From contig JABSQO010000002.1 in NCBI GenBank assembly GCA_013215775.1, positions 1 through 64,000 of the forward strand: DNA of 64,000 bases, written 5' to 3'. Made by a program: the position numbers and the translations under genes. Source of the stretch: Piscirickettsiaceae bacterium. Its GTDB lineage: Bacteria; Pseudomonadota; Gammaproteobacteria; Nitrosococcales; Methylophagaceae. The notes beneath the pieces were generated by a model. It was not told the origin of the DNA, ran no database searches, and worked only from the letters and a program-made list of their open reading frames with translations. Each line of letters starts with the position of its first letter. Within the stretch, counting starts at the first letter, position 1. Below are positions 24,578 to 61,956 of the stretch, piece by piece.

Positions 24578-24932
24578 TGAGATGGCCAGGCAATCGCGTT
24601 GTTAGCATGACTAGCAATGAGGAAAGTCCGGGCTCCAATGGGCAGGGTGCCAGATAACGTCTGGAAAGCGTGAGCTTATGGCAAGTGCCACAGAAAATAT
24701 ACCGCCTAATTCGTTAGGTAAGGGTGAAATGGTGCGGTAAGAGCGCACCGCGCAGCTGGTAACAGTTGTGGCAGGGTAAACCCCACCTGGAGCAAGACCA
24801 AATAGAAGAGCAGTTTACTTCGGTAAACAGATACGGCCCGTATCGTTCTTGGGTAGGTTGCTTGAGGCAAGCGGTGACGTTTGTCCCAGATGAATGATTG
24901 TCCTCGACAGAACCCGGCTTATGGCCATCTCA
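24578..24932 (+). ncRNA. rnpB: RNase P RNA (bacterial type A)
   Basis: The catalytic RNA of RNase P, which removes tRNA 5' leaders. The helix P1 is formed by TGAGATGGCCA at 24578 and TGGCCATCTCA at 24922-24932. Signature regions are present in order: GAGGAAAGTCCGGGCTCC, CAGGGTGCCAG, GTAAACCCCACCTGGAGCAAG, and near the 3' end TGAATGATTGTCCTCGACAG. A TAAAAT -10 box at 24565-24570 fits a start near 24578, and TTTTT just after P1 fits termination. This copy is complete; a second, decayed copy of its last ~61 nt lies at 32175. Confidence 0.97.
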
Positions 24933-24937
24933 TTTTT
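24877..24937 (+). repeat. Left copy of rnpB 3'-end direct repeat (candidate attL)
   Basis: ACGTTTGTCCCAGATGAATG...TTTTT, the end of intact rnpB, aligns without gaps to 32175-32235 with about 53 of 61 identities counted by eye. Two such copies in the same orientation bound the signalling cassette, as expected for integration into an RNA gene 3' end. Confidence 0.75.
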
Positions 24938-25310
24938 CTTATTAGCCTTAGGATATCAGTGAGCTAGTTTTCTTCTACTATGAGAGGCTAACTTTTGGCA
25001 CACAGCTATCTCACTTTAGGGGCGATATATTATTTTCGTTATCGTTGCCAGCGCATCATGATAAGAGCGTGAATTCTAAAGAGGTTAAGGGACTTAAGGT
25101 TCCTCGGCTTTACGGTTGTGCCAGTTCGATTCCGTCCCTAGTAGCAAATATGAAAGTCATAATACTAAACGTTGCTAAGGCTTTTGAGTCCATACATCAC
25201 CTCCCAATTTGATATATCTATCACTCCACTCTCAATCATCCACAAAAGATCAACTCAAGCTAAATACTTTTTTGACTAAAGTACTTGGACAATGTACGCT
25301 CTCGCAAAAA
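24938..25310. other. Gene-free stretch after rnpB
   Basis: No protein gene on either strand is convincing here. Its only recognisable content is the tRNA-Leu-like relic at 25065-25146, with a TTGACT sequence at 25272 that may be a -35 element without a clear -10. The stretch is the left border of the proposed island. Confidence 0.6.
25065..25146 (+). pseudogene. tRNA-Leu(UAA)-like relic
   Basis: The block AGGGACTTAAGGTTCCT has the shape of a tRNA anticodon arm with loop CTTAAGG, anticodon TAA (Leu). It is followed by a long variable arm CGGCTTTACGGTTG, then TGTGCCAGTTCGATTCC like a T-arm, and ends near TAGTAGCA rather than CCA. Upstream GCGTGAATTCTAAAGAGGTT resembles a D-arm. The T-stem and acceptor stem do not pair, so a functional tRNA is unlikely. 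The 3' half is best kept, as in attachment-site tRNA fragments. Confidence 0.55.
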
Positions 25311-25346
25311 CAGAAATAGCAGAAATAGCAGAAATAGCAGAAATAA
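25311..25346. repeat. Four tandem copies of a 9-bp unit
   Basis: CAGAAATAG occurs four times head to tail, the last ending in A (CAGAAATAA), directly upstream of the GTG start of the HTH-receiver gene. It sits between any promoter and the ribosome site, so copy-number change could alter the leader but not a reading frame. Confidence 0.9.
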
Positions 25347-25358
25347 CGGAAACGCATA

Positions 25359-25958
25359 GTGAATACATTCTTGCCATTTATAAAAAAAGAAATCTACACG
25401 ACCCATGAAGCGGCCACCATATTGGGTGTAACAGCACGTACGATACAGCTTTGGGCTGATAGCGGTGTCATTAACGTCTGGAAAACACCTGGTGGTCATC
25501 GGCGAATTAATTTAGAGGAACTGGAGAAATTACTTAATGCTGTTTCCAGTATACCTCTATGCAATAAGTCGGAAAAAAATATGCTCAATCTTCTCATCGT
25601 CGAAGATGATGTTGATTTACTAAAGCTTTATCAATTGAAAATATCTCATTGGGATATTGATTTGAATCTAAATTGTGTACGTGATGGTTATGAGGCTTTA
25701 TTGATGATTGGTGAAACATCTCCAGACATCATCATTACTGATTTACATATGCCCAATTTAGATGGGTTTCATATGCTAGATGTTTTATGTAATCGAACTG
25801 AGTTACAGCATACTGAGTTCATCGTTGTAACAGGGTTAAGTCCTGAAGAGGTAGAAGAGAGAGGTGGAATTCCAGAGCGCGCTAAATTATTTCCTAAACC
25901 TACGCCGTTTGAAACGTTAGCATCTATTATTCATCAGCGAAGTAAGCGTGTTTCGTGA
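25359..25958 (+). CDS. MerR/excisionase-type HTH fused to a response-regulator receiver domain
   Basis: Residues ~10-60 are a MerR-like DNA-binding domain: YTTHEAATILGVTARTIQLW, then KTPGGHRRINLEEL. Residues ~75-195 are a receiver domain with acidic pair VEDD, phospho-acceptor Asp128 in ITDLHMPNLDG, the conserved Thr in VVTGLS and Lys in FPKPT, so it should be phosphorylatable. The HTH-before-receiver order is the reverse of usual response regulators. Start is GTG at 25359 with a weak CGGAA site. It heads a one-direction six-gene cassette with a kinase-like and a real kinase gene directly after. The target genes are unknown. Confidence 0.88.
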   Translation: MNTFLPFIKKEIYTTHEAATILGVTARTIQLWADSGVINVWKTPGGHRRINLEELEKLLNAVSSIPLCNKSEKNMLNLLIVEDDVDLLKLYQLKISHWDIDLNLNCVRDGYEALLMIGETSPDIIITDLHMPNLDGFHMLDVLCNRTELQHTEFIVVTGLSPEEVEERGGIPERAKLFPKPTPFETLASIIHQRSKRVS

Positions 25959-25973
25959 TAATGGGGAAATGTA

Positions 25974-27092
25974 ATGCCTTTTGTAAACCTGTTTGATGAA
26001 ATGACTGATGCAGTATTGATTGTCACCAAAGATGGAGAAATCTCATACCGTAATAACTCAGCTATCGAAATGATTGGTGGAGAGTCAATAGATGAGTTTG
26101 AATCTATCCATTTGGCTCGTGTGCTGACAGAGTTACTGGCAGGAAATATAGAGCCTCCGCTTAAAGTCTATATCAGGCGCGGGGTTGAAGTACGGGTAAG
26201 TGCTCTGAAGAATGGCTATTTACTGCTTGGTAAAGATATAACATCCAGCAAGCAATATGAAACACTAAAACAAAACTTCTTTAGCTTGCTTAATAACGAA
26301 CTACGTATACCCATACAGAATTTTGTAGACAAAATATCATTGGTATCAGAACAGTTGTCTAACCTCGATTGTGGTCAAGTCACGATTGAGAATGCGGTAA
26401 AAAATACTCAAAAAAGCAGTCGCGAGATCCAGTATAAAATGGATCGATTACTTTTGCTTTGTGAGCTATATGGTGAGCATAAGATTGTAACCGATGAACG
26501 CATTTTACCAGCAGAACTAATGCACGATGTTAGAGAGATGGTTGCTAGTCAAATCAATGAGAAAGAACTGCTCGTTACCATTATAACCAAAGACATTGAT
26601 GGTGCTGTTCTTTACGGTAGCAATGTATGGCTTTCACTGGCATTACGTGAGTGTTTAAGCAGAATGATTGATCAATGTAGCCAAGGCAGTACTATTTATC
26701 TAAAGCTTGTTCAACATGCTTATTTTCTGACTGTAGTAATCCAAAATTATGGATTAGGAGGGGCGCCTCAGATTGATGATGAAAATGTGGCTCCATCATT
26801 GTTAGATGAAACTTCCTCATTTTGTGTCGACCATAATTTGGACATCGGTTTATCAATCGCCAATATGATAGTCGAATTTCATGGCGGATCACTGAAAGTT
26901 GCTGAAGGGCTTGATGACACAACAATTATAGAGTTGCCTATTGGAGATGCGCGTATATTGTTTAAAGATGAGCTCGGTATCGAACAAACAAAACGATATG
27001 CTGACGATATCTCAACAATGATGGAGCGCGGTTATGTTATGAGCAGCTCTGATAGTGTTGCTACGACGAGCGAATCAGACAATGTTAAATAG
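25974..27092 (+). CDS. Histidine-kinase-like protein lacking the phospho-acceptor His (pseudokinase)
   Basis: The protein (372 aa) has an N-terminal PAS-like part (DAVLIVTKDGEISYRNNSAIEMIG, ~10-90), a helical dimerisation-like part from ~93 and an ATPase-like part (~180-315). In the H box the sequence is NNELRIPIQ where active kinases have HELRTPL, so Asn108 replaces the His. The N box (LRECLSRMID) and G1 box (QNYGLGG instead of DxGxG) are also altered, while GLSIANMIVEFHGG recalls the G2 end. It is likely inactive as a kinase and may act as a scaffold or regulator. No transmembrane segments. It overlaps the next gene by 11 bp. Confidence 0.8.
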   Translation: MPFVNLFDEMTDAVLIVTKDGEISYRNNSAIEMIGGESIDEFESIHLARVLTELLAGNIEPPLKVYIRRGVEVRVSALKNGYLLLGKDITSSKQYETLKQNFFSLLNNELRIPIQNFVDKISLVSEQLSNLDCGQVTIENAVKNTQKSSREIQYKMDRLLLLCELYGEHKIVTDERILPAELMHDVREMVASQINEKELLVTIITKDIDGAVLYGSNVWLSLALRECLSRMIDQCSQGSTIYLKLVQHAYFLTVVIQNYGLGGAPQIDDENVAPSLLDETSSFCVDHNLDIGLSIANMIVEFHGGSLKVAEGLDDTTIIELPIGDARILFKDELGIEQTKRYADDISTMMERGYVMSSSDSVATTSESDNVK

Positions 27093-30000
27093 CACAAAAA
27101 TCATTTTCTTTGCGACCTCTATTCTGATGGGCTTGGCAGGAAATATTGCCAATCTCGAACTTTTTTTTGGTGTTAACTTCCTATTTGGCAGCATAGCCAC
27201 AATGCTCGTGTTACGTATATCAGGTTGGGCTTGGGGTAGTTTGGCTGGATTTTTAATTAGCCTATATAGCCTTTATCTCTGGGGACACCCCTATGCCATT
27301 ATTATTTTTACTTTGGAGGCTGTTGTTGTTGGTTTTTTAATCCACAGCAAAAGGTTTGATGACTATGTACTAGCTGATATTACCTACTGGATTGTGATTG
27401 GTGGCCCACTTATCTATCTATTTTACACTCAAATGTTAGAGTTAGATGACCAAGTCAGCTACTTAATTATCGTTAAGCAATCTCTTAACGGCATATTAAA
27501 TACTGTTATTTCCAGCCTGATATTCATTGGTATATTATCTATAAGGCCAAACTTTTCCAGCTTAAAAATTCTGTTAAAACACGAATCTTGGCCATTACAC
27601 AAGTTAGTGCGTGTCGTACTCATGTTCTTTGCTATCGTGCCATTAATCATTATCATGACTATTTCAAATAGTTCTGAATTTAACAAAATTGAAACGCATT
27701 TAGATACTCAGATCAATGAAAAATTAATTATCGGTAAAAAGAGGCTTAATCAGTTCATCACTTGGCATGCCGCTCATGGGGATGTTTTAGTTGACCTTCT
27801 TGCCGACAGTCTCAATGACCAAAATGAAATTAAAAATAGTTTTGCAGACTGGTATTTACTGTCAACGCCACAAGAAATAGAGGGCTTAGTCATTGTTGAT
27901 AGCCAACACATATCACATGTTTTCGGTTCCAATGACTATAAGAATAAAATGGCCGAACTCACAGTAAATGAGCTTGATGCAATGTTGAGACAGGCTCCCT
28001 TAGAACTGAATTTTTCTAAACAAGATCAATTATTCTATCTAATACTACCTCGAAACCCAAAAGGTTTCACGGCACTTGTTGTGATGAAGGATGAAAGTAT
28101 TACTAAATTCTTACAGCAACTTTCTCCTAGCACTAACTGGTTTAGCGCTCTACAAGATAGTAATGGCAATGTGCTTGCGGATAATTCTACTAACGATATG
28201 TTTTTACTTAAAGACTATGTGCATAGCGAAGACACGTCTTATCTTCACCCTAAATTAGAGTCTAATTCACTACTTAAGCATTGGAAAACGTCCTATCGCT
28301 TTTCTGATGTTTCAGTAGCCAGCAATGATGCCATCAGACTTATGTTTGCAACGCCGATGGATGAGTATATTGATCTACTACAGAACACTTACTTTAGAAC
28401 GACCTTAATGACAATTCTTGCAGCTATTTTTATTCTCTTTGTTGCTCCCTTAGCATCAAGACTGTTCTTGAATCCCATTGAAACATTAATCGCTAATATA
28501 AAGCTGTTATCGAAATCCACTGCAAGAGATGATATTACATGGCCAAACTCATTATCTTCAGAGTTGAAATCTTTATTGGATAATTTTAAAAGCTTAATTT
28601 CAACAGTTAACAATAAGCAAGCTGAATTGTTGTTACTGCAAACAAAGAGCAGAAAACTAGCCGACAATGCAGTCTCAAGTGAGTCTTATATTAACCAAAT
28701 CCTGAATAATGTTGAAGATGGCATTGTGACAGCTGATGAACAAGGGATTATAAAGTCTGTTAATAAAGCAATTTATGGTTTATTTGACTATACGGCTGAT
28801 GAACTAATTGGCAAAAACATTGATATTTTTGTACCAGAAACATATAAAAAAGCGCATTCACAAGGATTTCATCGCTATCTACAAGCAGGAGAAAAGCATT
28901 TATTAGGGCTAAGAAGTGTAGAAGTAAAAGCGATAAAAAAAGGCGGTGAAATATTTGATATTGAAATTGGCGTTAGTGAATTAAAAACAGATGAAGAAAG
29001 AGTTTTTATTGCCATCATGCATAACATTTCGCACAGAAAGCACATTGAACACCGATTAATAGTAGAAAAACAGCGGATGTCTCGATTTTTTAATGCATCA
29101 ATGGAAGGTTTGTTTTTCCATGACAACGGCATAATTGTTGATGTTAATCAAACTGGCTTAAGGATGTTTGGGTATAGAAATGATGAAGTTGTCGAACATT
29201 CCTTCTTTGAATTTATCCCAGAACAATATCAAGAGCTTGCCATATCAATGATGGCAAAACATTCAACAGAAACATGGGAGCTTGAAGTTATTAAGAAAGA
29301 TGGCTCACTTATCCCTGTTGAAATACAAGGACAAGAAACGATTATTGATGATAAAAACATTCGAATTATTGCAATAAGGGACATCTCTGAACTTCATGCT
29401 TATCGAACTAAAATGGAGCAGCTTGTTAAGAAACGGACACAAGAGCTTAATGCTATTTGTACCTTAAGCCCTGATGGCTTTGTATTAATAAATCCACAGG
29501 GCAATATTGTTTATGCTAATGACTCATTTACCCAGATGACAGGACTATCCTTTCAAGGTTATGGCAGTATGACAATTGAGGATTTTTACCAGCAATTGTT
29601 TTTGTTGAGTGATGGATCTAAAAAGTTAGACACTAATAAACGTATTAACGGAAATTTACCTTCACAAACGATTCATCTAATTCGCCCTGCTAAACGAGTG
29701 TTAAGGTTTACCTCACGGAAAATGCAAGATCAAGATCAAGATCAAAACCAAAAGCTTCAGGGGACAGTATTATATTTTCATGATATCACTCATGAATCTG
29801 AACTAGATGAAATGAAGAGTGAGTTTTTGTCTACTGCTGCTCATGAATTGCGCACTCCGCTGGCGAGTATTCTAGGTTTCAGTGAACTGCTATTGATGCA
29901 TGACTATGATGAAGTTCAGCGTGTAGATTTAATCGATACAATTCATCGACAATCAGTAAATCTCAAACATTTATTGGATGAGTTATTAGATCTGGCACGT

Positions 30001-30516
30001 ATAGAGTCAAGGGCAGGGAAAGATTTTACTATTCTCTCGACTACTGTTGAGTCTGTTTTGTCTTTGTGCTGCCGGGATATGCGTAGTCTTAGTGGTAACT
30101 GTACATTAAAGAAAAAAATATCTGAAAGTTGGCCAAAAGTTCTGATAGATGAAGATAAGATACTTCAAGTATTGACCAATGTGATTGGTAATGCATTTAA
30201 GTATTCACCTGCAGGTGGTGAAGTCATTATCTCAACTGCAATACGTGAAAGTGAAGAAAAATCTCAATTTGGAATAATTGTTGAGGACCATGGTATTGGT
30301 ATGACGCTTCAGCAAATTAGTCGAGTTGGAGAACGGTTTTTCAGAGTTGATAATACAGGTTCAATTCCCGGAACAGGTTTAGGAATGGCTCTTGTAAAAG
30401 AAATTATAGAAATACATGGCGGTACGATAGAAATAGAGAGTCAGATTGGACTAGGAACAACAGTTTCATTATGGCTCCCAATAGATAATTCGGTTAGGGG
30501 GAGTAATGATGAGTAA
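27082..30516 (+). CDS. Multi-PAS membrane sensor histidine kinase
   Basis: An 1144-residue protein with an N-terminal multi-helix membrane region (to ~200), a periplasmic-like sensor region (~205-440), another membrane helix (~441-465), a linker, three PAS domains (about 538-650, 668-770, 793-900), a HisKA domain with His921 in AAHELRTPLAS, and an HATPase domain with N box NVIGNAFKYS, G1 DHGIGM, F box FFRVD and G2 GTGLGMAL. All catalytic parts are intact. The ATG at 27082 overlaps the stop of the preceding gene by 11 bp; the track's TTG at 27055 is less likely. A DQDQDQNQ stretch lies before HisKA. It should phosphorylate one or more of the three nearby receivers. Confidence 0.9.
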   Translation: MLNSTKIIFFATSILMGLAGNIANLELFFGVNFLFGSIATMLVLRISGWAWGSLAGFLISLYSLYLWGHPYAIIIFTLEAVVVGFLIHSKRFDDYVLADITYWIVIGGPLIYLFYTQMLELDDQVSYLIIVKQSLNGILNTVISSLIFIGILSIRPNFSSLKILLKHESWPLHKLVRVVLMFFAIVPLIIIMTISNSSEFNKIETHLDTQINEKLIIGKKRLNQFITWHAAHGDVLVDLLADSLNDQNEIKNSFADWYLLSTPQEIEGLVIVDSQHISHVFGSNDYKNKMAELTVNELDAMLRQAPLELNFSKQDQLFYLILPRNPKGFTALVVMKDESITKFLQQLSPSTNWFSALQDSNGNVLADNSTNDMFLLKDYVHSEDTSYLHPKLESNSLLKHWKTSYRFSDVSVASNDAIRLMFATPMDEYIDLLQNTYFRTTLMTILAAIFILFVAPLASRLFLNPIETLIANIKLLSKSTARDDITWPNSLSSELKSLLDNFKSLISTVNNKQAELLLLQTKSRKLADNAVSSESYINQILNNVEDGIVTADEQGIIKSVNKAIYGLFDYTADELIGKNIDIFVPETYKKAHSQGFHRYLQAGEKHLLGLRSVEVKAIKKGGEIFDIEIGVSELKTDEERVFIAIMHNISHRKHIEHRLIVEKQRMSRFFNASMEGLFFHDNGIIVDVNQTGLRMFGYRNDEVVEHSFFEFIPEQYQELAISMMAKHSTETWELEVIKKDGSLIPVEIQGQETIIDDKNIRIIAIRDISELHAYRTKMEQLVKKRTQELNAICTLSPDGFVLINPQGNIVYANDSFTQMTGLSFQGYGSMTIEDFYQQLFLLSDGSKKLDTNKRINGNLPSQTIHLIRPAKRVLRFTSRKMQDQDQDQNQKLQGTVLYFHDITHESELDEMKSEFLSTAAHELRTPLASILGFSELLLMHDYDEVQRVDLIDTIHRQSVNLKHLLDELLDLARIESRAGKDFTILSTTVESVLSLCCRDMRSLSGNCTLKKKISESWPKVLIDEDKILQVLTNVIGNAFKYSPAGGEVIISTAIRESEEKSQFGIIVEDHGIGMTLQQISRVGERFFRVDNTGSIPGTGLGMALVKEIIEIHGGTIEIESQIGLGTTVSLWLPIDNSVRGSNDE

Positions 30517-30895
30517 TAAAAAGATATTAATTATCGATGACCATGGTGATTTGAGAAAACTAGTCAGGATGACACTTGCATTTGGTGGCTATGAATTGCA
30601 TGAAGCAGAGGATGGTCAGCAAGGGCTTAGTTTGGCGAATGTTATTCAGCCAAAGGTAATAATTCTCGATGTGATGATGCCGGGAAGTTCTGATGGATAT
30701 GACGTCTGCCACAAAATAAAACTAAATCCTGCAACACAAGATATATTTGTCATCTTACTGACGGCAAGAGGACAAAAAAAAGATATTGAACAAGGAGGGT
30801 TGGTAGGTGCTGATTCCTATTTAGTTAAACCTTTTAGTCCATTAGAGCTTATTGAAAAAGTAAACGAGGGGATGAATACAATTGAAACAATGTGA
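30506..30895 (+). CDS. Single-domain response regulator (receiver only)
   Basis: A 129-residue receiver with IIDD acidic pair, Asp55 in ILDVMMPGSSDG, LLTARG and VKPFSP. No output domain is attached. It overlaps the kinase gene by 11 bp and the HD-GYP gene by 14 bp, so all are cotranslated. It resembles the receiver at 31731 closely (DLRKLVR, LVKPFSP), suggesting local duplication. As the next gene is an HD-GYP protein without its own receiver, this may be the separated receiver of an RpfG-like pair, which is inference. Confidence 0.9.
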   Translation: MMSNKKILIIDDHGDLRKLVRMTLAFGGYELHEAEDGQQGLSLANVIQPKVIILDVMMPGSSDGYDVCHKIKLNPATQDIFVILLTARGQKKDIEQGGLVGADSYLVKPFSPLELIEKVNEGMNTIETM

Positions 30896-31685
30896 TGATA
30901 CATTAAGGCTCGGATCGACAATATTTTCCCATGAGTTACTACCTCAAATAAATGCTGAATCACTCAATAGAAAGTTATTTGCCGTAGAACAGGAAAAGCT
31001 AACGGCTTATAAGCAGCTTGAGCGCTATAGCAGCGATATAGTCACAATAATTAAACAACGAGAAGATGCTTATAATGCTGTGGCAATGGCTCATCTTGAC
31101 ACGCTTCAACGGCTTGCTGTTGCAGCTGAATACAAAGATGATGATACAGGTGTTCACATTCTGAGAATGAGTAACTTCTCAGCCATCATTGCTCGCGCTT
31201 ACGGAATGGATAAAGAATATTGTAGATTATTGTTACAAGCCAGCCCCATGCATGATATTGGCAAAATCGGCATTCCTGACCGTGTGTTAAAAAAGCCAGG
31301 AAAACTGACTGAAGATGAATGGGAAGTTATGCGTAAACATCCTGAATATGGTTATGAGATACTTTCTGGCTCTGAAGTTCCTGTGATTATGTTGGCGGCA
31401 GAAATAGCCCTTGCACATCATGAAAAGTTCGATGGTAGTGGTTATCCAAATGGACTTTCCGGTACAGAAATTCCTCTTAGTGGTCGTATCGTAGCATTGG
31501 CAGATTTTTTCGATGCTGTAACAATGGATCGTTGTTATCGCCCTGCTATGACCGATGATAATGCACAATCTTTAATTGAAATAGGTAAAGGAAAACATTT
31601 CGATCCAGAGGTTGTTGATGCGTTTTTATCGGTACTAGATGAGCTTATAGCAACTAGAGATGAGATTAATAAATCTGATTTTTAA
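30882..31685 (+). CDS. HD-GYP domain c-di-GMP phosphodiesterase
   Basis: HD-GYP proteins hydrolyse c-di-GMP. Residues ~85-255 hold the HD motif (HDIGKIGIPD, His124), the AHHEKFDGSGYPNG block with a complete GYP, and the KGKHFDPEVVDAF end. The N-terminal ~80 residues are a helical, probably coiled-coil region (QEKLTAYKQLERYSSDIVTII). Unlike RpfG it has no fused receiver; the receiver is encoded by the preceding, overlapping gene. The start is TTG at 30882, inside the end of that gene. All metal ligands that I can identify are retained, so it is probably active. Confidence 0.9.
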   Translation: MKQCDDTLRLGSTIFSHELLPQINAESLNRKLFAVEQEKLTAYKQLERYSSDIVTIIKQREDAYNAVAMAHLDTLQRLAVAAEYKDDDTGVHILRMSNFSAIIARAYGMDKEYCRLLLQASPMHDIGKIGIPDRVLKKPGKLTEDEWEVMRKHPEYGYEILSGSEVPVIMLAAEIALAHHEKFDGSGYPNGLSGTEIPLSGRIVALADFFDAVTMDRCYRPAMTDDNAQSLIEIGKGKHFDPEVVDAFLSVLDELIATRDEINKSDF

Positions 31686-31730
31686 TTAGAGACAGTAGAT
31701 TGAACATATAAAATAATAGCGGGAAATAAC

Positions 31731-32099
31731 ATGCAAAAACAACTGCTTATTGTTGATGATGATGCTGATTTGAGAAAGTTAGTACGTAAGATATTAGAAT
31801 TTAGTGATTTTGAAATACATGAGTCTGACAATGGTCAAGATGCATTAAACTTTGTACTCCACACAAAGCCTGAAGTGGTTATTCTCGACATAATGATGCC
31901 TGGTGAAATTGATGGTTTTGAAGTTTGTAGGCAAATAAAATCAAATATAGCGACAGCTCATGTGAGAGTTGTTTTGTTGTCGGCATTATGTTTGAAAGAG
32001 GACCTTCAGAAAGGGGGTGAATCTGGTGCTGATGCCTACTTAGTTAAGCCATTCAGCCCTCAAAGCTTGCTGGATACAGCGAAAATTGTAGGGGGTTAG
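31731..32099 (+). CDS. Single-domain response regulator (receiver only), paralogue of 30506 gene
   Basis: A 122-residue receiver with IVDDD, Asp53 in ILDIMMPGEIDG, LLSAL and VKPFSP. It shares DLRKLVR, the D-I/V-MMPG core and AYLVKPFSP with the receiver two genes before. It lies 45 bp after the HD-GYP gene and is the last of the cassette; 75 bp further on is the rnpB relic. No partner outside the cassette can be named. Confidence 0.9.
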   Translation: MQKQLLIVDDDADLRKLVRKILEFSDFEIHESDNGQDALNFVLHTKPEVVILDIMMPGEIDGFEVCRQIKSNIATAHVRVVLLSALCLKEDLQKGGESGADAYLVKPFSPQSLLDTAKIVGG

Positions 32100-32174
32100 T
32101 GTCAAGTTAGAAAGGTGATGATGAAACGACAAAGTCCAGTAAGTTCTTGTCAAAGGAAAGGGTAAAGAGCTATT

Positions 32175-32235
32175 ACGTTTGCCCCAGAGGAATGATTGTT
32201 CTCGACAGATCCCAGCTTATGACCATTTAATTTTT
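32175..32235 (+). repeat. Decayed second copy of the rnpB 3' end (candidate attR)
   Basis: ACGTTTGCCCCAGAGGAATGATTGTTCTCGACAGATCCCAGCTTATGACC...TTTTT matches the last 61 nt of rnpB including the poly-T, with about eight substitutions and no gap. The P1 partner half is not present, so it cannot be a functional RNA. A further weak match, GTTCTTG at 32143, keeps the right spacing, so the original duplication may have been longer. Confidence 0.85.
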
Positions 32236-32566: not shown

Positions 32567-32574
32567 GTCAAAAA

Positions 32575-32600
32575 GTGGGGAAAAGTGGATCAAAGTGGAT
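32575..32600 (+). promoter_or_regulatory. MraZ operator, three GTGG boxes with 10-bp period
   Basis: GTGGGG, GTGGAT and GTGGAT start at 32575, 32585 and 32595, separated by exactly one helical turn. This is the known MraZ recognition layout in other bacteria and implies autorepression of the dcw operon by its first product. Confidence 0.85.
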
Positions 32601-32621
32601 CATAAAAATGGAGAGTAACAA

Positions 32622-60129: not shown

Positions 60130-61956
60130 TTATTTGTCACGATTTTGGCTTGGGCGTCTTGCCGTATCACGAGGGCGAATACGTGCTTTCCCTGAGCGTT
60201 TAGGTTTACGATGGGTATCAGAACGAGGACTATCTGAAGCTTCATCATGGTTAACAAGGCTGAGTTCCAGTTGTTTGTTACATACCCAGACTTTACGTAG
60301 CTGTTGGAACAAATCTTTTGGCATGCCTTGCGGTAAATCAATGGTACTGTAATCATCTTGTAGGCTAATTCGACCAATATCTTTACTATCGATACCGGCT
60401 TCATTCGCAATGGCACCTACAATATTTTTCACTTCGACACCATGAGTTCTACCGACTTCAACACGGTATGTTTGCATGCCATCTTCACTACGATGTGGGG
60501 CTGACTGATTGCCACGACGAGGAGAACGTGCACCACGATCAGAACGTGCACCACGATCAGAACGTGCACCACGATCAGAACGACTACCGGCTTCACGTTC
60601 TTTTCTTGCTGGGCGTTCACGCACATGAACAACAGGTTTAAGTGGGCGATTTTTTTGCACTAAATAGGTTAGTGCAGCAGCTACTTCAAGCGGATCGGAA
60701 TCATGAGATTCTTGATAATTAGCCATAACTTCTTGGAAAAAGCCTAAATCTTGAGATTCAATTGTTTCACTTAACATTTGTGTGAATTGCATTACACGAC
60801 GATCGGCAATATCTTCAGTGCTAGGTAATTGCAACTTCTCAATAGGTTGACGTGTTGCTTTTTCAATGGCAAACAACATACGTTTTTCACGTGGTGATAC
60901 AAATAAAATTGCTTGACCTTTACGGCCTGCACGACCAGTACGTCCGATACGATGAACATAAGATTCAGTATCGTAAGGAATATCGTAATTGATTACATGA
61001 CTGATGCGTTCAATATCTAAACCACGAGCTGCCACGTCAGTGGCAACAAGAATATCAAGCTTGCCTTTCTTCATACGTTGAATTGCTTTTTCACGTGCCG
61101 CTTGGTTCATGTCACCATTTAAAGGTGAGCTAGAATAACCACGCGCTTCTAATTTTTCAGCCAACTCAGCAGTCGCATTTTTAGTGCGAACAAAGATGAT
61201 CATGGCATCAAATTCTTCAACCTCAAGAATACGTGTTAATGCTTCTAACTTATGCATTCCTGTCACTTGCCAGTAGCGTTGGGTAATTGTATCAATTGTT
61301 GATGTTTTTGATTTAATACGAATTTCAACAGGATCTTTTAGGTAACGTGTTGCAACACGATGAATAGGGCCCGGCATGGTTGCTGAAAATAAGGCAACTT
61401 GGCGTGATTCTGGTGTTTCTTTCAGGATGGTTTCAACATCATCGATAAAGCCCATTCGTAACATTTCATCAGCTTCATCCAAAACAAGTGATTTGAGTTC
61501 ACCTAGTTTTAATGTGCGACGACGAATATGATCAAGGATACGACCAGGTGTGCCGACAATTACTTGTGGATTACGTTTTAATTGGCCTAGTTGAATTCCC
61601 ATGCTTTGACCACCATAGATGGGTAATACATGTAAACCTTTAAGGTGACGAGCGTAAGATTGGATGGCTTCAGCAACTTGAATAGCCAATTCTCGTGTTG
61701 GTGCTAACACCAACATTTGGGGCATTTTATTTTTAACATCAATGCGGCTTAATAATGGCAATGCAAAAGCGGCTGTTTTACCGGTACCTGTTTGTGCTTG
61801 GCCTAATAAATCGCGACCTTCTAAAAGAGGTGCGATACTTTGTGCTTGAATAGGAGAGGGTGTTTCATAACCAGCTTCATCAACAGCTTTAAGAATAGGA
61901 GCGGATAAGCCCAAATCCGAAAAGGAGATAGCTGGAGTTTGTTCTGTGTCTGACAT
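60130..61956 (-). CDS. deaD: DEAD-box RNA helicase, DeaD/CsdA-like
   Basis: A 608-residue ATP-dependent RNA helicase involved in cold-adapted ribosome assembly and mRNA decay in E. coli. Q motif SPIQAQSI, AQTGTGKT, APTRELAIQ, LDEADEMLRMGF, SATMP, VATDVAARGLD, and YVHRIGRTGRAG are seen. A C-terminal RNA-binding domain (QTYRVEVGRTHGVEVKNIVGAIANEA) and a basic tail follow; a repeat of SDRGAR three times lies between them. A 219-bp gap to dodecin upstream gives room for a cold-shock leader. Confidence 0.95.
   Translation of the reverse strand: MSDTEQTPAISFSDLGLSAPILKAVDEAGYETPSPIQAQSIAPLLEGRDLLGQAQTGTGKTAAFALPLLSRIDVKNKMPQMLVLAPTRELAIQVAEAIQSYARHLKGLHVLPIYGGQSMGIQLGQLKRNPQVIVGTPGRILDHIRRRTLKLGELKSLVLDEADEMLRMGFIDDVETILKETPESRQVALFSATMPGPIHRVATRYLKDPVEIRIKSKTSTIDTITQRYWQVTGMHKLEALTRILEVEEFDAMIIFVRTKNATAELAEKLEARGYSSSPLNGDMNQAAREKAIQRMKKGKLDILVATDVAARGLDIERISHVINYDIPYDTESYVHRIGRTGRAGRKGQAILFVSPREKRMLFAIEKATRQPIEKLQLPSTEDIADRRVMQFTQMLSETIESQDLGFFQEVMANYQESHDSDPLEVAAALTYLVQKNRPLKPVVHVRERPARKEREAGSRSDRGARSDRGARSDRGARSPRRGNQSAPHRSEDGMQTYRVEVGRTHGVEVKNIVGAIANEAGIDSKDIGRISLQDDYSTIDLPQGMPKDLFQQLRKVWVCNKQLELSLVNHDEASDSPRSDTHRKPKRSGKARIRPRDTARRPSQNRDK
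60524..60577 (-). repeat. Three perfect 18-bp tandem repeats in deaD
   Basis: GAACGTGCACCACGATCA occurs three times head to tail without a mismatch, coding SDRGAR in the basic linker after the helicase core. It can change copy number without a frameshift. Confidence 0.9.

Follow-up and report, generated by a model that had tools for sequence, protein, structure and literature searches.

A widespread response regulator family with its BldC-like DNA-binding domain ahead of the receiver and 9-bp direct repeats upstream of many of its own genes

Which DNA site does a response regulator recognise, and what does it control, when its helix-turn-helix (HTH) domain precedes the receiver? The question is raised by a gene that heads a signalling operon in the window, the stretch of 64,000 nucleotides from a Piscirickettsiaceae bacterium analysed here (Table 1). 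The first-pass annotation had described a reversed-order regulator with an intact receiver, had suggested an excisionase captured by signalling within a mobile element and had named a nearby 9-bp array among the first DNA sites to examine. The reading that we favour, and consider rather probable, is that of a phosphorylation-controlled, self-regulating response regulator of BldC type, belonging to a widespread family with the same reversed domain order.

Table 1. Coordinates of the regulator gene, its proposed operator, the operon it heads and the flanking repeats in the window
Feature	Position	Strand	Basis or remark
3' end of intact rnpB (24578-24936), left flanking repeat	24870..24937	+	RF00010, 337.6 bits; repeat D2
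9-bp direct-repeat array, proposed operator	25302..25354	+	four CAGAAATAG/A units plus degenerate units on either side
HTH-receiver (HTH-REC) response regulator gene	25359..25958	+	ORF, 199 aa, GTG start
BldC/excisionase-like winged HTH with GGHRR wing	25395..25538	+	residues 13-60; HTH_17, NCBIfam and BldC structure matches
Receiver domain	25593..25928	+	residues 79-190; Response_reg and conservation; phospho-acceptor D128 at 25740-25742
PAS and degenerate histidine-kinase-like protein	25974..27092	+	phospho-histidine replaced (NNELRIPI)
Membrane PAS sensor histidine kinase (HisKA and HATPase_c)	27055..30516	+	Pfam/NCBIfam domain matches
Stand-alone receiver	30506..30895	+	Pfam
HD-GYP-type (HD_5) protein	30882..31685	+	Pfam HD_5, E 2.5e-34; HD and GYP motifs in translation
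Stand-alone receiver	31731..32099	+	Pfam
Duplicated rnpB 3' end, right flanking repeat	32168..32235	+	84% to left copy, 68 bp

The reversed order is confirmed by Pfam, which places HTH_17 (E 1.8e-10) ahead of Response_reg (E 9.6e-13) and also finds a MerR match in the HTH (E 5e-7), all over the curated cut-offs. The HTH is of the BldC-like type that had been proposed, as seen from NCBIfam matches to excise (2.7e-11) and HTH_BldC (1.1e-10) and from phmmer matches to the BldC structures 6amk and 6ama (E 3e-4 to 4e-4); the HTH_BldC match lies under its cut-off (41.2 bits vs 77 for NF033787), and the protein is therefore not filed as a BldC-family member. Across 55 homologues W32, T43, the GGH (45-47) of the GGHRR wing (residues 45-49) and R49 are invariant. 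On comparison with the interface residues of BldC, F21 was found to correspond to L22, hydrophobic in all 55 homologues, W31 to W32, present in all of them, and L43 to position 44 (P44 in the regulator), which is mostly small or apolar and charged in two; BldC Arg30 is replaced by Leu31. The BldC trait of a lone winged HTH is not shared, since a receiver comes after it. This receiver has the full set of response-regulator residues, with the acidic pair D83/D84, D128, T158 and K180 conserved; each of D128, T/S158 and K180 is retained by 54 of 55 homologues, so that the earlier description of intact phosphorylation residues holds. AlphaFold, run on 44 homologues, predicts two confident domains at a mean pLDDT of 91.7, with a loose linker between them at about residues 66-70. 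A structure search found no solved structure spanning HTH and receiver together. The family profile matches the receiver of 3CNB (E 4.7e-29), and as this entry carries the name 'DNA-binding response regulator, merR family', the architecture was already visible in annotation. A role in anti-phage defence was considered and rejected, the matches to HTH and receiver being weak only.

A profile built from eleven homologues detected full-length HTH-receiver proteins in at least about 46 of 369 genomes for the class and at least about 73 of 399 for the phylum, across which this domain order is widespread and found mainly on chromosomes. Matches at 80% cover occurred in five of 72,556 plasmid records, and no full-length member was found among 50,697 phage records or, in a single-protein scan, in viral contigs; E. 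coli genomes gave no DNA match. At 36 of 44 loci the regulator has a histidine kinase no more than about five genes away. For tyrosine integrases, only one of the 150 strongest matches listed from 47 genomes with an HTH-receiver gene falls less than 20 kb from that gene (15 kb, in G410).

The window cluster (24938-32167, 7.2 kb) lies between rnpB and mraZ, with a GC content of 34-38% vs about 39-44% in the flanks. The mobile island of the first-pass annotation is thus real in outline, given its lower GC and the rnpB 3'-end repeats on either side, but it comes without an integrase: none was found among the ORFs of the cluster, nor was a recombinase gene found inside this cluster or that of G011. 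Of 28 other species in the genus, two were found to have related clusters, G011 beside gcvP and G007 elsewhere. The G011 cluster is placed between 397-bp direct repeats, 94% identical (L071 1250-1646 and 8908-9296), that hold the 3' end of gcvP together with the beginning of the gene that follows. As the window copy is flanked by rnpB repeats and the G011 copy by gcvP repeats, the cluster is inserted at different sites. Many relatives carry different cargo in the rnpB-mraZ interval, and three of them (G019, G002, G005) short rnpB 3'-end fragments. Two other repeats were observed in the window. Ahead of mraZ (32573-32602) lie three direct repeats that contain GTGG, have a period of 10 and resemble the known MraZ operator; a perfect 18-bp tandem repeat of 3.3 copies, AGAACGTGCACCACGATC, occupies 60523-60582.

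The repeats that flank the cluster bear on the proposal that an excisionase (recombination directionality factor) was taken up by signalling and acts at the ends of a mobile element. Excisionases also have HTH_17, and the insertion between rnpB repeats, as well as that of the related cluster between gcvP repeats, would suit such an origin. The fold is, however, common to excisionases, BldC and others and gives no evidence of descent, while the chromosomal spread of the architecture, the lack of full-length members in the phage records and viral contigs scanned, and linkage to kinases rather than integrases all argue against capture. Most of what the first-pass annotation had named as speaking against its proposal is thereby observed, namely a widespread and chromosomal architecture with no integrase linkage. 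Moreover, the arrays described below precede the gene start, at promoters where these are visible, and do not lie at the insertion ends. On these grounds we regard the excisionase proposal as highly improbable.

The 9-bp array named by the first-pass annotation proved to be real. Its perfect part spans 25311-25345 (3.9 copies), and the array ends right before the GTG start. The two-unit pattern has four matches in the window vs 0.14 expected, and at the stringency used this is the only array of its kind in the 2.2-Mb genome. Further targets in the same genome were sought and rejected: with up to three mismatches, the two-unit pattern was hardly commoner than the control, and a one-mismatch match sits within a hisS-like gene.

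A period of 9 had drawn attention in advance, since the HTH has BldC as its nearest characterised relative, and BldC binds 9-bp direct repeats. For each of 55 members, direct repeats of period 5-15 in the 200-bp upstream region were scored against dinucleotide shuffles; start codons were set by rule, so that array-to-gene distances are approximate. Period 9 alone stands out, with a mean z of 2.44 against at most 0.46 for other periods. After removal of members more than 60% identical (n=38), the mean z at period 9 was 2.30 and that of other periods at most 0.5. A z above 2.5 at period 9 was reached by 17 of these 38 vs 10 of 150 controls, taken upstream of other ORFs at these loci (Fisher p 1.1e-7). 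A replication set comprised 40 members, each sharing less than 60% identity with those of the first set; 15 of them exceeded z 2.5 (p 4.6e-6), with a mean z of 1.80 and other periods at or below 0.32. Period 9 is thus a family trait and the lead offered by the window array is strongly strengthened, even with over half of the non-redundant members having no array at the z 2.5 threshold. Arrays reach about 6-8 units. The repeat sequences vary between members, many sharing the form of an A/T-rich run followed by YG or CG (TAAAATCGA, TAAATTTGA, AAATATCGG and CAAAATCGA are examples); the window unit AAATAGCAG is without the YG step of this wider consensus. If the regulator were an ordinary one, its promoter binding unremarkable and its reversed order of no mechanistic consequence, the canonical receiver and so common a family would be accounted for. 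Such a reading would leave unexplained the period-9 repeats that distinguish family members from control upstreams of the same loci, and we give it the slightest chance of all the readings weighed here.

Where else do such arrays occur? Three-unit patterns derived from the arrays ahead of HTH-receiver genes in five genomes (G511, G504, G353, G168 and G281) match only there; as the patterns were built from regulator-gene arrays, the new information is the absence of other matches. In G000 and G011 the three-unit array is likewise found only ahead of the regulator's own gene. G007 has two additional 9-bp arrays of the same motif besides that of its own gene (L230 8170-8221 and L231 7813-7873). 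One heads a type IV pilus-like operon, whose products are a histidine kinase, a receiver, a GAF-GGDEF-EAL protein, a STAS-MshEN-T2SSE ATPase and a T2SSF protein, and the other precedes the gene of a 135-aa orphan protein; both operon and orphan gene are candidate targets. At the G011 locus, as at all three of G007, a promoter-like -10 box on the correct strand ends 2-12 bp ahead of the array, so that the array would cover the transcription start. Four of five arrays examined thus directly follow such a box; the exception is the window array, ahead of which no promoter above threshold was found.

The array motif was also found to vary with residue 30, which lies in the recognition helix: R goes with WCG (7/8), H with TTGCA (6/11) and Q with TGAT (7/16), with a permutation p <0.0002 for categories set after seeing the data and a statistic that ignores kinship. 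A blind Mantel test over the whole set gave a weak overall correlation between HTH identity and array similarity (rho 0.10, p 0.10), and this correlation was dropped.

Such arrays could instead be bound by another protein, serve as sites in leader RNA (such as the GGA of CsrA-type regulation) or be functionless products of slippage. Perfect copies, as seen in the window and in G011, speak for slippage, GGA occurs in some units, and the array probably lies within the leader. GGA is nonetheless missing from many arrays of the family, for example TGTCGATTT, TAAAAACGA and ATTTGATAA, for which reason CsrA-type leader sites were rejected. Furthermore, the period stays at 9 in unrelated sequences, the place ahead of the same gene is conserved and the motif covaries with the recognition helix. 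Considering all these points, this group of explanations appears to us quite improbable.

The second gene of the operon encodes a kinase-like protein that matches a PhoR-type model (E 1.7e-15) with a weak Pfam HATPase_c match, and its phospho-histidine column has no His in two related proteins either. In three species (the window, L071 7085-8146 and L075 7160-8254) the regulator is followed by such a pseudo-histidine-kinase that lacks the phospho-histidine; it is possibly a partner that modulates the regulator or the kinase. The membrane PAS kinase is the likely cognate kinase of the regulator, and the HD-GYP-type protein, judged from its motifs, is a probable c-di-GMP phosphodiesterase. At other loci, substrate-binding-like proteins adjoin HTH-receiver genes (L075 6348-7157, L072 6628-7422, L073 7369-8166, L289 8006-8830). 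The L075 protein matches PhnD-type models, the L072 protein has no NCBIfam match, and those of L073 and L289 are alike by eye. The membrane part of the window kinase and a periplasmic sensor part may be able to stand in for one another. A second group of HTH-first receivers, all of one family (f140) and adjoining kinases and receivers, was also observed, with GRGNNRV or GRGNYRV in place of GGHRR (L289 7421-7981, L290 7145-7705, L291 6981-7565, L292 8314-8973).

In the reading that we favour, the HTH would most likely bind the 9-bp repeats ahead of its own gene with one protomer per repeat, and the protomers would line up head to tail on the array as in BldC. The regulator would thereby control the signalling operon that it heads, comprising the pseudo-kinase, the PAS kinase, the receivers and the HD-GYP protein. 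D128 would be phosphorylated, probably by the PAS kinase, and the phosphorylated receivers would pack differently, by which the protein chain on DNA could be either strengthened or broken. The bound state most likely represses, an option favoured because the arrays of relatives begin just downstream of the -10 box, and phosphorylation most likely lifts this repression, by analogy with the response regulator HnoC of Shewanella oneidensis. The chances are about even for the broader proposition that this class of response regulators forms BldC-like chains on arrays at their own promoters, with repeat number and phosphorylation together setting the switch and the recognition helix predicting the repeat.

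HnoC also suggests an alternative. It is reportedly a tetramer, possibly of HTH-first domain order, and is said to bind an inverted repeat; such an operator, if so, would argue against head-to-tail assembly. In three genomes (G183, G295 and G391) the gene right after that of the HTH-receiver protein encodes an H-NOX, for which reason HnoC, a part of the H-NOX/HnoK network, may itself be a family member. The whole family could then consist of tetrameric repressors that sit on an inverted repeat over the promoter and are released when phosphorylated, the 9-bp repeats being part of a complex operator. The location of the arrays at likely transcription starts agrees with this, as does the H-NOX neighbourhood. 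However, the signal seen in the family comes from direct repeats of precisely 9 bp in up to about 6-8 units. We hold the alternative to be unlikely, though in its favour phosphorylation is reported to relieve the repression that HnoC, a DNA-binding response regulator, exerts on its own signalling regulon (PMC8738867). The two systems share a c-di-GMP context, represented in the window cluster by the HD-GYP protein; unlike the HnoC network, the cluster is without an H-NOX.

Taken together, a large receiver-bearing group with 9-bp arrays ahead of its own genes constitutes a widespread and little-studied family, and a DNA site can be proposed for many genes labelled merely 'response regulator' or 'helix-turn-helix protein'. 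If the chain model is right, the family would provide a second example of head-to-tail assembly on DNA, here under the control of a signal, period-9 arrays would be a simple rule for locating targets, and phosphorylation would be tied to filament length in a testable manner.

Amongst known proteins, the structural-genomics target 3CNB from Colwellia psychrerythraea has a name that implies the same pairing of HTH and receiver; its receiver alone has been solved, and to our knowledge it has no known function. OmpR/PhoB-type response regulators likewise combine a receiver and a winged HTH, and some bind direct repeats, but they are receiver-first and their winged HTH is different. Excisionases and other recombination directionality factors such as Xis and RdfS share the HTH_17 fold and can build head-to-tail filaments on DNA (PMC11963761); unlike the family, which has no integrase linkage, they are without a receiver and are partnered by an integrase.

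Literature searches for a link between HTH-receiver proteins and BldC returned nothing apart from the 2018 BldC study, which described BldC as the only MerR-like regulator known to act on direct repeats through its winged HTH alone and left open the role of its many relatives (PMC5859096). BldC of Streptomyces (NF033787; PDB 6AMA/6AMK) binds 9-bp direct repeats head to tail with the consensus AATTXXXX(C), and its optimised site, in the same frame as the family units, reads ACAATTCGG (quoted in PMC5859096). It differs from the family in being a protein of 68 aa without a receiver, and the window HTH differs in turn by its sub-threshold score and the Leu at Arg30, as does the family by its varying motifs. 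The two nevertheless have in common the MerR-like winged HTH with its GGHRR wing and invariant Trp, the hydrophobic head-tail positions, and 9-bp direct repeats with an A/T-rich part, in arrays that vary in length and occur in either orientation.
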